64,000 nucleotides of DNA from an uncultured Acetatifactor sp. Its GTDB lineage: Bacteria > Bacillota > Clostridia > Lachnospirales > Lachnospiraceae. Within the stretch, counting starts at the first letter, position 1. Each line of letters opens with the position of its first letter. This document shows positions 27,951-31,649 of the stretch, one piece after another. Location: contig CANQJL010000003.1 in NCBI GenBank assembly GCA_947624245.1, positions 1-64,000 of the forward strand, in the 5' to 3' direction. The position numbers and the translations under genes were made by a program. A model generated the notes under the pieces. The model saw nothing but the letters and a program-made list of their open reading frames with translations. It did no database searches and was not told where the DNA came from.

Positions 27951-29984
27951 TTACACCTGAGACTGCTTCCTATACTGCACAGGAGTGATGCCGTAGCTCT
28001 TTTTAAAGAGCCGGTTGAAATGCTCTACGTTCTCATAGCCCACCTCTGCCGCCACGGCCTCCACGGTCCGATCGGTCTCCCGCAGCAGCGAACGGGCTTT
28101 TTTCATGCGCTCCTTTTTCACTACCTCCTGGAAGGTAACGCCCGCCTTCTCCCGGATATACTTGGACAGATACGGCTTCGACAGGTGGAAGCTCTCCGAA
28201 AGCTTCTCCAGCGTCACGTTCTTGTAATCGTTCTGGATAAAGCTGATGATCTCCACGATCCGCTCCTCACGTCCCTCCGTAATGTGCTGCTGGGCGGTAA
28301 GCTTGTTCACCGCAGAGGCCAGCGCTGCGATGGAGGCCTTGATGATGTCTTCGTCCACGCCCACGCCCCAGTAGAACTGTCCGTTCTGGACGATGCCCAC
28401 ATAGGACGCCGCCTTCGAGCTGGAGCCCTTGGAGATAGCGTGCTCCTCGTATACGGAGAGCTCGTAGCTGATGCCGAAATATATTTTCAGGCAGTTGCTG
28501 ACCGCGTCCAGACGCCCGTTGCCCTGTGCCTTGATCACTCTTTTCCTGCCGCCCGACTCTAACGTCACCTCCGCCTGAATACCGCGTTCCTGCTTGAAAT
28601 GACATTCCGGAATGCTGAACACGCTGCGGGGCGTTATATAATTTTCCTTGAAGATCTCGTAAATTTCCGACGGCAAGAGCTCCTGATGGCGTCTGTCGGA
28701 GACGCCCTTGATCAGATAGCCCACTTCCTCCTTCATGGCCGCCGGCAGGGAGAAGCCGAACTGCTGCTTTAACACGAAGGCCACGCCGCCCTTTCCCGAG
28801 ACGCTGTTGATTCGAATGACGTCGGACTCATATTCCCGTCCCACGTCGGCGGGATCGATAGGCAGATATGGCACGTCCCAGCGCTTGCCGCTCTTTCCCT
28901 CCTTCAGCCACGCCATTCCCTTGCTGATGGCGTCCTGATGGGAGCCGGAGAAAGCGGTGAACACCAGATCGCCCGCATACGGCGTGCGCTCGTGGACCTT
29001 CATACCGGTAAAGCGCTCATACGCCTCTCTGATCTGCATGATATTGGAGAAGTCCAGACCGCTGTCCACGCCGTGGCACATCATATTGTTGGCCAGCGTA
29101 ACGATATCCACATTGCCCGTGCGCTCGCCGTTTCCGAAAAGAGTTCCCTCCACCCGATCCGCGCCGGCCAGAACGCCGAACTCCGCATCGCTGATGCCGC
29201 AGCCCCGATCGTTGTGGGGATGTACGCTCAAGACAACGCTGTCGCGGTATTTCAGATGCTTATGCATATATTCCACCTGACAGGCAAACACATGGGGCAT
29301 TGCCACCTGCACCGTGGTCGGCAGATTGATGATCGCCTTATGCTTCGGGTCCGGCCGCCAGACATCCAGCACCGCGTTGCAGACCTCCAGCGCATAGTCC
29401 ACTTCCGTCTGGGAAAAGCTCTCCGGACTGTACTCAAAGGTAAAGTTCCCCTCCGTCCGCTCCGCCAGCCTGCGAAGCAGATCGGCACCGTCCACGGCCA
29501 GCTTCTTGATGGCTTCCTTATCCTTTTTAAATACCTGCTCCCGCTGCTCCACGGAGGTGGAGTTGTACAGGTGGATCACCGCGTGGGGCGCACCCTCCAC
29601 CGCCTCGAAGGTCTTGCGGATAATGTGCTCTCTCGCCTGAGTCAGCACCTGAATGGTCACGTCGTCCGGAATCATATCCCGCTCAATCAGGGCGCGGATA
29701 AAATTGTACTCCGTGTCGGAAGACGCGGGGAAGCCCACTTCTATCTCTTTAAAGCCGATATCCACCAAAAGCTTGAAGAACTCCAGCTTTTCCTCCAGGC
29801 TCATCGGGTCGATCAGGGCCTGGTTGCCGTCCCGCAGATCCACGCTGCACCAGATGGGCGCCTTGTCCAGACAGTCCTTTTTCACCCAGTCGTAGGTGAC
29901 CTCCGGAGGCATATGGTAGGTCTTGCCGTACTTTTCACTGATCTTTACGCTTGTTTCGCTCTTTTTCTTCGTTTCCTTCTTCAT
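27951..29984 (-). CDS. leuA: 2-isopropylmalate synthase fused to an AraC-type DNA-binding domain
   Basis: A 677-residue protein. Residues about 1-560 are a complete long-form LeuA, which condenses acetyl-CoA with 2-oxoisovalerate as the first leucine step. The HMGL-like barrel has the catalytic CSVDLRDGNQAL and the metal ligands in HPHNDRGCG, plus LFGNGERTGN; the C-terminal allosteric (leucine-binding) domain spans about 430-560. Residues 568-677 are a clear AraC-family double helix-turn-helix, recognised by VTLEKLSESFHLSKPYLS, TFQEVVKKERM, TVEAVAAEVGY and FNRLFKKSYGITPVQYRK. The reading frame is continuous and the junction is a short charged linker. The start at 29984 has GGAGGA eight bases upstream; the TTG at 30002 overlaps that site. 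It is divergent from an MFS gene, so it may regulate itself or the transporter; that is inference. Confidence 0.92.
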   Translation of the reverse strand: MKKETKKKSETSVKISEKYGKTYHMPPEVTYDWVKKDCLDKAPIWCSVDLRDGNQALIDPMSLEEKLEFFKLLVDIGFKEIEVGFPASSDTEYNFIRALIERDMIPDDVTIQVLTQAREHIIRKTFEAVEGAPHAVIHLYNSTSVEQREQVFKKDKEAIKKLAVDGADLLRRLAERTEGNFTFEYSPESFSQTEVDYALEVCNAVLDVWRPDPKHKAIINLPTTVQVAMPHVFACQVEYMHKHLKYRDSVVLSVHPHNDRGCGISDAEFGVLAGADRVEGTLFGNGERTGNVDIVTLANNMMCHGVDSGLDFSNIMQIREAYERFTGMKVHERTPYAGDLVFTAFSGSHQDAISKGMAWLKEGKSGKRWDVPYLPIDPADVGREYESDVIRINSVSGKGGVAFVLKQQFGFSLPAAMKEEVGYLIKGVSDRRHQELLPSEIYEIFKENYITPRSVFSIPECHFKQERGIQAEVTLESGGRKRVIKAQGNGRLDAVSNCLKIYFGISYELSVYEEHAISKGSSSKAASYVGIVQNGQFYWGVGVDEDIIKASIAALASAVNKLTAQQHITEGREERIVEIISFIQNDYKNVTLEKLSESFHLSKPYLSKYIREKAGVTFQEVVKKERMKKARSLLRETDRTVEAVAAEVGYENVEHFNRLFKKSYGITPVQYRKQSQV

Positions 29985-30314
29985 ATCACAAATCCTCCAC
30001 AATGTCTGATTGGATTATGGTAGCACATGTTTTGTTGCCGCGCAATGATTATTTTTATCTTTTGTGTTGATTTATTTTACCTTCATCATTTGGTTTGTTC
30101 TTGTTATTACGCATGTCTATCGTATTTTTTATTGATTAAATTTATCGAATATTCATGATTTATTATTAGTATTTGTCTAATTAAAATTTATGATGTGTCT
30201 CTGCCATAGATTCTTTTCCGGAAAAAGTTTTCTCTGCTAAATTCTTCCCTGAAAGGTTTCAGCACGATTATGAACGGACTACCATATCACACAGGAAAGG
30301 ACAAGGAACACAAT
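29985..30314. other. AT-rich divergent promoter region
   Basis: No gene. This 330-bp AT-rich spacer separates the LeuA-AraC gene from the divergent transporter gene and must carry promoters for both. I could not find a single convincing -35/-10 pair, but several AT-rich half-sites (for example ATGATTTATTATT and TTTATGATGTG) recur on the plus strand near 30150-30200. Target sites for the AraC domain would be expected here. Confidence 0.4.
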
Positions 30315-31649
30315 ATGAAAAACATTCAAAACAAGTGGATCCGCGCTGCGATTCCCGCACTGCTGCTCCACTGCAGTATCGGTACCGTATACTGCTGGTC
30401 CATCTTCAGTCAGGAGATCGCCAACTACATCGGCTTTTCCAAGAGCGCTACCGAATGGGCCTTCAGCTTCGCGATCTTCTTTCTGGGAATGTCTGCGGCT
30501 TTCCTCGGAAATATCGTGGAGAAGGACATTCACAAATCTTCCCTTATCGCGGCTATCTGCTTTGCGGCCGGCATGGCCGGAACAGGCTTCTTTATCTGGT
30601 ACGGCGGAGCGCATAACGGAAGCCCGCTGGCGCTGATCGGCATCTATATCTGCTACGGCTTTATCATGGGTATCGGTCTCGGAACCGGTTATCTCTCTCC
30701 GGTAAAGACCCTGATGCTCTGGTTCGAGGACCGCAAGGGTCTGGCCACAGGATTGGCCGTGGCCGGCTTCGGTGCGGCAAAGGCCATCGCCAGCCCCATT
30801 ATGCAGGCCATACTGGATCATCTGGGGGACGGCGGCATCTACAAGATGTTCCTGATCCTGGCCGCTGTCTATTTCGTCATGATGTTCGTGGGACACCTGC
30901 TCCTTGCAAAGCCCGCCGGCTGGCATGAGCCCGCTTCCACCGAGAAGGGCGCCCGGGCCATCGACGTGATCAAGGAGAAGCCCGTCACCTTTATCGGCAT
31001 CTGGATCATGTTCTATTTGAATATTACCTGCGGCCTTGCGCTGATCTCCCAGGAGAAAATGATCATCAAGTGCATCGGTCTGGTAGGCATCGTGGGAATC
31101 CTTTCCTCCGTCACGGCAATCTTCAACGCGGGCGGACGTCTCGGCTTCTCCGCATGGGCCGATACCTTTAAGGACAGGAACACCATTTACAAGATCATGC
31201 TGATTCTCTCGATTGCAGCCACCGGTCTGGTGATCGTGACACAGGGCATCAGCAACCGCGGAGAGAACACTTTCTTCATGATTTTGGTGCTGATCCTTCT
31301 GTTCGTGGTGAACGCAGGCTACGGCGGCGGTTTCAGCAACGTGCCCACACTGCTCTCCGATCATTACGGCATGAAGAACATCAGCGCTATCCACGGCATC
31401 ACCCTTTCCGCATGGGCCATCGCGGGCCTGACCGGAAATCAGATGTCTTCCTTTATCGTGAACCACTTCGGAAACTGGATAGATTTTGAGCATGATAACA
31501 TCGTAGAAAAGATCAATCCCGAAGGCTATCAGACGGTGCTGTATGTAACACTGGTTCTGTACATCATCGCCGCTCTGTCAAGCTTCTTCCTTGTGAAATC
31601 GCCCAAGGGGGAGACCAAAAAGAGCAAGAAGGCGGAGCAGACCTCTTAA
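30315..31649 (+). CDS. OxlT-like MFS transporter (oxalate/formate antiporter family)
   Basis: A 444-residue major facilitator of the OFA family. Twelve hydrophobic segments are expected. The first is at about 12-30 (IPALLLHCSIGTVYCWSIFSQ), followed by typical OFA traits such as GFSKSATEWAFSFAIFFLGM, GIGLGTGYLSPVKTLMLWFEDRKGLATG, and a long hydrophilic loop near 190-205 (AKPAGWHEPA). Such proteins exchange carboxylates such as oxalate, formate or related acids; the substrate is not known here. The start at 30315 was chosen by AAGGAAC upstream; a longer frame from 30270 adds 15 unsupported residues. It is the only gene divergent from the LeuA-AraC fusion. Confidence 0.85.
   Translation: MKNIQNKWIRAAIPALLLHCSIGTVYCWSIFSQEIANYIGFSKSATEWAFSFAIFFLGMSAAFLGNIVEKDIHKSSLIAAICFAAGMAGTGFFIWYGGAHNGSPLALIGIYICYGFIMGIGLGTGYLSPVKTLMLWFEDRKGLATGLAVAGFGAAKAIASPIMQAILDHLGDGGIYKMFLILAAVYFVMMFVGHLLLAKPAGWHEPASTEKGARAIDVIKEKPVTFIGIWIMFYLNITCGLALISQEKMIIKCIGLVGIVGILSSVTAIFNAGGRLGFSAWADTFKDRNTIYKIMLILSIAATGLVIVTQGISNRGENTFFMILVLILLFVVNAGYGGGFSNVPTLLSDHYGMKNISAIHGITLSAWAIAGLTGNQMSSFIVNHFGNWIDFEHDNIVEKINPEGYQTVLYVTLVLYIIAALSSFFLVKSPKGETKKSKKAEQTS

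Follow-up and report, generated by a model that had tools for sequence, protein, structure and literature searches.

Fusion of LeuA to an AraC-type DNA-binding domain

The locus described here raises the question of whether a biosynthetic enzyme that carries a DNA-binding domain on the same polypeptide regulates the gene that encodes it. Within the window, that is, the whole 64,000-nucleotide stretch of DNA that was analyzed, a leuA-araC fusion gene spans positions 27951 to 29984 on the reverse strand, the strand of all features given below unless noted. It is a single open frame of 677 codons plus a stop codon, with no internal stops; an alternative TTG start six codons upstream, at 30002, is also open. 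The original prediction of an unbroken frame from LeuA (2-isopropylmalate synthase) into an AraC-type double helix-turn-helix (HTH) was borne out by this open reading frame and by five Pfam domains, each exceeding its curated cutoff. The protein contains an HMGL-like catalytic TIM barrel (residues 43 to 320, positions 29025 to 29858; PF00682, E 5e-69), an IPMS_D2 post-catalytic domain (residues 339 to 406, positions 28767 to 28970; PF22615, E 1.9e-31), a LeuA_dimer allosteric (leucine) domain (residues 437 to 562, positions 28299 to 28676; PF08502, E 2.2e-26), and the AraC-type double HTH (residues 595 to 674, positions 27963 to 28202), which matched HTH_18 (PF12833, E 2.7e-22; 79.3 bits against a cutoff of 33.6) and, at residues 637 to 673, HTH_AraC. 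The stretch between the LeuA_dimer and HTH_18 matches (residues 563 to 594, positions 28203 to 28298) contains the first helix of the AraC-type domain. The barrel, IPMS_D2, and LeuA_dimer were present in 29 of 29 members of alignment A2, NCBIfam NF002991 (2-isopropylmalate synthase) covered residues 17 to 561 (788 bits; cutoff, 455), and Pfam matched no other sensor domain in the protein.

In an AlphaFold model based on 29 sequences (mean pLDDT, 78), a helix at residues 547 to 565 was followed by one at residues 574 to 585, and pLDDT was 84 to 90 per block in the HTH region, up to residue 670. The predicted recognition helices 1 (residues 603 to 614, positions 28143 to 28178) and 2 (residues 653 to 664, positions 27993 to 28028) were both helical. 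The model favors a folded HTH that begins a short distance beyond the final helix of the leucine domain. Domain packing was left uninterpreted because confidence was low at residues 333 to 397 and the pTM was 0.51.

The fused protein is the sole LeuA found in the window's genome (G000; 99.3% complete); five further matches comprised four that were HTH only and one that covered 118 residues of the barrel. Both leuB and an ilvB lie on contig C13, away from the fusion gene, and leuC lies on contig C2, where the next gene reads as leuD by inspection. With these genes present elsewhere in the genome, the product of the fused enzyme is expected to enter a complete pathway. The divergent MFS transporter gene (positions 30270 to 31649, forward strand; nearest to the L-lactate and oxalate-formate antiporter families, below their cutoffs) and the AT-rich spacer are both present as originally described. 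A functional link to the transporter was not upheld: the cluster containing the MFS gene stood among the three genes upstream of leuA in just 17 of 129 fused loci, two of them copies of the window itself. The gene neighborhood of fused leuA varied among loci, and the MFS neighbor looks incidental.

Distribution and history of the fusion

The same five Pfam domains were found in all of the 120 best of 7989 scored proteins (85 to 96% identical), which rules out the frameshift or assembly error at the junction that the original prediction had allowed for. Five of these 120 hits bear a name, in each case just 2-isopropylmalate synthase, and we found no description of a LeuA-HTH fusion in the open-licence literature, a scope outside which subscription journals mostly fall. 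The 80 best of 307 encoding stretches (68 to 95% identical) all aligned to residue 671 or beyond. The titles of these 80 loci were mostly Lachnospiraceae genera or species, including [Clostridium] symbiosum ATCC 14940, Claveliimonas bilis, and Lachnospiraceae bacterium GAM79, and a few were titled just Bacillota, Clostridia, Eubacterium, or bacterium. The fusion is conserved in Lachnospiraceae, a point that the original prediction had proposed to check.

Within the window's own family, LeuA was detected at E 1e-60 in 181 of 200 genomes; among the matches listed, at least 44 genomes had a match reaching residue 672 or beyond, and most other matches stopped near residue 560 to 570. At the order level, 141 of 246 genomes matched at E 1e-100 and 13 were fused, all within the family. 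The order's other families contributed 109 of the matching genomes, none of them with a fused LeuA, and the few order-level matches running to residues 590 to 605 contained stops. Some genomes (G022, G009, G014, G108, and G144) carry a fused LeuA together with a second, unfused LeuA that is about 50% identical.

A phylogenetic tree of the LeuA core was built from 123 sequences, of which 77 were fused (with 110 C-terminal residues removed) and 46 were unfused. The trees hold all 46 unfused loci and 77 of the 129 fused ones (the window plus every fourth among those at least 76% identical); near-duplicates, such as L038/L087, L040/L176, and L069/L090, occur among the counted loci. The fused label changed 10 times on this tree, compared to 37.3 times with shuffled labels. 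Unfused genes sat nested among fused ones, with many branches weakly supported, and from this nesting the simplest reading is a single gain of the fusion and several subsequent losses.

In two loci, L132 and L138, the HTH lies directly downstream of leuA in another frame; both branch with fused genes and appear to have split secondarily. Homologues with the HTH as a separate downstream gene, which the original prediction had listed as evidence against it, thus exist, and only as these two apparent splits. With leuA oriented on the plus strand, the gene ends at 5656 in L132 and at 5668 in L138, and in both it is followed by an apparently intact HTH in a different frame. In L138, an eight-A run comes just ahead of the LeuA stop, and the frame change could stem from slippage, from a genuine split, or from an error of assembly. 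A third locus, L133, is cut by a contig end.

Conservation of the enzyme, leucine domain, and HTH

Residues R51, D52, E188, H255, H257, and N291, which we take to be the catalytic and metal residues of LeuA, were identical in 128 of 128 fused proteins, and they were aligned with Mycobacterium tuberculosis LeuA (1SR9). Full identity also held in the leucine domain for G488, N489, G490, Y512, and A525, with E513 and H515 each conserved in 127. PMC11057210 describes leucine pockets that sit where the regulatory domains dimerize and a loop that shuts over the ligand; the stretch of the fusion protein that aligns with this loop, YEEHAISKGSSSKAA, was conserved. The recognition helices were likewise nearly uniform across the 128 proteins: S607 (128), Y605 (127), and K608 (124) in helix 1 and E654, F656, and R658 (127 each) in helix 2.

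Mean pairwise identity among the 128 fused proteins (1500 random pairs) was 0.66 for the HTH, 0.645 for LeuA_dimer, and 0.81 for the catalytic domain, and residues 563 to 594 were the least conserved of the stretches compared (0.47). By simple Nei-Gojobori counts, dN/dS in close pairs was 0.031 for residues 575 to 674, 0.036 for the catalytic domain, and 0.086 for the dimer domain. By the same counts over 300 wider pairs, in which synonymous sites were saturated, the respective pN/pS values were 0.164, 0.09, and 0.195, so that over these pairs the HTH was less constrained than the catalytic domain. This comparison shows that selection acts on the HTH.

A predicted operator at the leuA promoter

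Upstream of leuA, at positions 30043 to 30079, we identified a predicted operator composed of two direct half-sites, TAAAATAAATCAA and TAAAAATAATCATTG, 22 bp apart, which form a conserved motif with the half-site type TAAAATAAATCAAT. It falls inside the spacer (29985 to 30314) that the original prediction had named for a binding test. As read from the sequence, a -35 hexamer (TTGCGC, 30040 to 30045) is separated by a 17-bp spacer from an extended -10 element (TGC TACCAT, 30017 to 30022), and TGTGnTAnnAT was conserved at the -10 position across upstream regions. The proximal half-site shares its last three bases with the start of the -35 hexamer. Transcription would start about 25 nucleotides before the ATG.

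We scanned 900 bp upstream of each gene with a 37-bp operator-only matrix, using the 99% shuffle level as the threshold. An operator exceeded this level in 121 of 125 fused upstream regions versus 5 of 46 unfused ones; these and the other motif counts omit L030, L050, and L055 (fused, with less than 200 bp upstream) and L001 (the window copy). The five unfused regions that passed were those of L132 and L138 (HTH in another frame), L133 (contig end), and L145 and L159 (both marginal). The fused loci under the threshold were L020, L063, L067, and L073; judged by eye, L063 and L020 have operators with altered spacing and L067 does not. With a rigid 64-bp matrix that took the window as its seed, 103 of the 125 fused loci cleared the 99% shuffle level, as did 3 of the 46 unfused ones, and a single motif of this kind was rejected as too strict because the distance to the -10 element varies and T-boxes push some operators further upstream.

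When matrices from one half of the family were applied to the other half, operators were found in 54 of 59 and 54 of 66 fused regions and in 4 and 6 of the 46 unfused ones, for a motif that is AT rich and was trained on these genes. On the opposite strand, 20 of 59 and 6 of 66 fused regions passed in these held-out tests, whose training sites had themselves been located with the full matrix. Direct half-sites at 22 bp stood out in both clades, the proximal one being far more degenerate than the distal one, and in the deeper clade an inverted half-site copy scored better than the direct one. One small clade (L061, L062, L064, and L065) has N rather than H at residue 655 and F rather than Y at residue 609, and its first half-site is GTCAA instead of ATCAA. 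We treat this H655N/GTCAA covariation as a lead on specificity and left it uncounted, as it comes mainly from one small clade and eight other GTCA operators have H655.

The operator model R1 scored 24.7 bits at the window leuA (E 9.6e-5 in the whole genome). Among 30 other fused genomes, several of which also contributed sequences to R1, there was a match at E 1 or better in 29 and a match at leuA by coordinates in 27, with none at leuA in G135, G156, and G158. A matching operator predicted at the promoter of the fused gene is what is new here.

A third, distal half-site, TAAATTTAATCAAT, lies at 30131 to 30144, 65 bp upstream of the operator (offset -65). Such an extra half-site, at least 40 bp above the operator, was found in 26 of 108 nonredundant upstream regions (23 of the 60 at 72% identity or more and 3 of the 48 others), and hits were oriented forward in 32 cases versus reverse in 2. 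The common offsets were -65, -76, -87, -97, and -108, while -91, -112, and -163 fit the phase less well. Phasing of the offsets gave R 0.724 at a period of 11.0 bp, against a mean R of 0.325, a 99th percentile of 0.666, and a maximum of 0.752 (above the observed value) for 300 column-permuted matrices. Looping and cooperative binding both require sites on the same face of the helix, and the distal half-site may serve either.

Evidence for a wider regulon was slight. A regulon in the window's genome was rejected, as R1 found no further match there below E 0.1 (150 of 1143 first-look candidates scored). At leuB and ilvB loci, R1 matched in just 2 of 60, and a wider regulon would be lineage specific at most. 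Operator-like sites occur upstream of leuD-leuC, beside leuB-ilvD (reverse orientation), and near a livK-like gene; those in G156 (L231, L221, and L222) are at leuB, leuD-leuC, and the livK region (names partly by inspection). One lies at a second ilvB in G191 (loci L218 and L217), L219 is a G116 locus with an operator-like site, and other neighbors in this set of loci include a sodium-symporter-like gene and a short-chain dehydrogenase. These sites hint at lineage-specific growth of the regulon.

Replacement of the T-box leader

T-box control of branched-chain amino acid biosynthesis in Bacillales and Clostridia is reported in PMC2494555. No Rfam leader was found in the window at gathering scores, RF00230 included, and we rejected a leader RNA on the window leuA both for this reason and because the 5' UTR of about 25 nucleotides, as placed from the promoter, would be too short for a T-box leader. 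Of 30 unfused loci scanned with Rfam, 24 have a T-box ahead of leuA, and no T-box was identified in the other six (L126, L130, L132, L138, L139, and L140). Outside the window, a T-box was found in 7 of 34 fused loci (3 of 20 in one set and 4 of 14 in another that was chosen partly for missing operators). All seven of these fused genes have an operator as well, which lies 378 to 792 bp ahead of the anchor codon, as expected of intermediates. Almost all of the leaders inspected have a leucine codon (CTC, CTG, or CTA) at the specifier position. Across all loci, a T-box core pattern was counted upstream of 8 of the 125 fused genes and 29 of the 46 unfused ones (4 of 855 shuffles), and at ten leuB, leuC, and ilvB loci of fused genomes there were no Rfam hits at gathering scores.

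In the tree, 75 rows had both HTH and operator, 41 had neither, 3 had the HTH only (L073, L067, and L063), and 2 had the operator only (L145 and L159, marginal). In independent pairs, with L133 and L138 dropped and L132 and L073 coded as HTH bearing, the operator tracked the HTH in 4.7 of 5 on average, with no pair going the opposite way; the sign test gave a median P of 0.0625, and with 5 pairs it cannot reach 0.05. The HTH of L073 still matches HTH_18 with its recognition helices replaced (ETSGEELSGYIEQQG and AGSARELSGLLEK); this locus had the lowest operator score of the fused set and an upstream T-box of 80.4 bits (E 1.2e-17), under the gathering score of 93. Comparison among these loci shows that HTH and operator co-occur and, on the same footing, that T-box control was replaced in the fused lineage.

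Proposed mechanism and alternatives

Most of the unfused relatives use an RNA switch; the fused enzyme probably takes over that task and regulates its own synthesis. We propose, with a probability of about 0.78, that a working 2-isopropylmalate synthase doubles as the transcription factor for the gene that encodes it, with class II-type activation, leucine as the off-switch, and the T-box displaced. The AraC-type domain would bind the two direct half-sites upstream of, and touching, the leuA -35 element, the arrangement of a class II activator, and the third half-site on the same helix face may add looping or cooperativity. Leucine bound to LeuA_dimer, which inhibits catalysis in relatives, would also shift the seating of the HTH pair on DNA, turning off enzyme and promoter together, and this device would have taken over from the leucine T-box leader. 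From the sequences we infer physical binding, activation rather than repression, the leucine signal, and looping; leucine is the likely switch, through the allosteric domain of LeuA, and activation with leucine as inhibitor is our first choice. At a little under even odds, we entertain a more specific version in which one leucine pocket sets both activity and transcription, the HTH pair alternates between looping to the distal site and occupying both half-sites at the promoter, and the T-box was displaced by way of living intermediates with both controls. Because L132 and L138 keep the operator with LeuA and HTH in different frames, tethering of the two may be dispensable.

The strongest alternative, unlikely in our judgment yet to be taken seriously, is that the fused HTH is a repressor and that the leucine-bound protein blocks the -35 region in the classic end-product style. 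The end-product logic is identical, the proximal half-site overlies the first bases of the -35 box, and helically phased distal half-sites would suit repression loops too. However, AraC-type proteins with a half-site overlapping the -35 element are usually activators, and by inspection many promoters of the deeper clade match the -35 consensus poorly, like activator-dependent promoters. It is also rather improbable that the HTH senses substrate or flux (2-ketoisovalerate, acetyl-CoA, or 2-isopropylmalate) instead of leucine. The catalytic residues conserved in all 128 proteins share a polypeptide with the HTH, which is not tied here to any one ligand, but the HTH closely follows the leucine domain in the predicted succession of helices (547 to 565, then 574 to 585), the motifs of that domain are conserved, and the control that was replaced was a leucine T-box.

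We give little credence to a scenario in which another regulator uses the operator and the fused HTH serves some other function or was added as a structural element. The pairing of fusion and operator is predicted, and L132 and L138 retain the operator despite their frame difference; against this, operator and HTH are jointly absent in several lineages, in L073 the recognition residues are altered and no operator is present, and the recognition helices are otherwise nearly invariant. That the fusion is an assembly or frame error is negligibly probable and already refuted, since many separate public assemblies contain the same full-length frame, even though the HTH of L132 and L138 is in another frame.

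Comparison with known systems

If the proposed mechanism is correct, a committed, feedback-inhibited enzyme of amino acid synthesis would be a transcription factor, and allosteric and genetic feedback would reside in one molecule, here for leucine synthesis in gut Lachnospiraceae. The fusion shares its barrel, D2 domain, and leucine-regulated dimer domain with Mycobacterium tuberculosis LeuA (PDB 1SR9; leucine bound, 3FIG), whose structures were the best Foldseek hits of the model and to which the best stretch aligned over query residues 38 to 530 (497 bits, with LeuA_dimer aligned in part). The M. tuberculosis chain ends at the leucine domain, whereas the window protein continues into the double HTH. 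As in the AraC/XylS regulators (AraC, RhaS, SoxS, and MarA), there are two HTH_18-type HTHs, and the predicted direct-repeat half-sites are about two turns apart with the inner one at the -35 element. The helically phased distal half-site is comparable to araO2, which has this role in the AraC system. In contrast to those regulators, the sensor of the fusion is a whole biosynthetic enzyme with an allosteric domain, and deeper-clade operators read better with an inverted half-site than with a direct one.

The T-box leader (RF00230) provides leucine-responsive control of leuA in the unfused sister genes; it is an RNA that senses uncharged tRNA, whereas the fusion is predicted to act as a protein on DNA. 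Transitional genes, with fusion, operator, and T-box or with fusion, altered HTH, and T-box, would make this swap from an RNA to a protein sensor traceable step by step. Enzymes that combine a metabolic activity with a DNA-binding part in one polypeptide and regulate genes of their own pathway include BirA, PutA, and NadR. The fusion differs from these in its enzyme and in its DNA-binding fold, and it has a separate end-product allosteric domain between the enzyme and the DNA-binding part.
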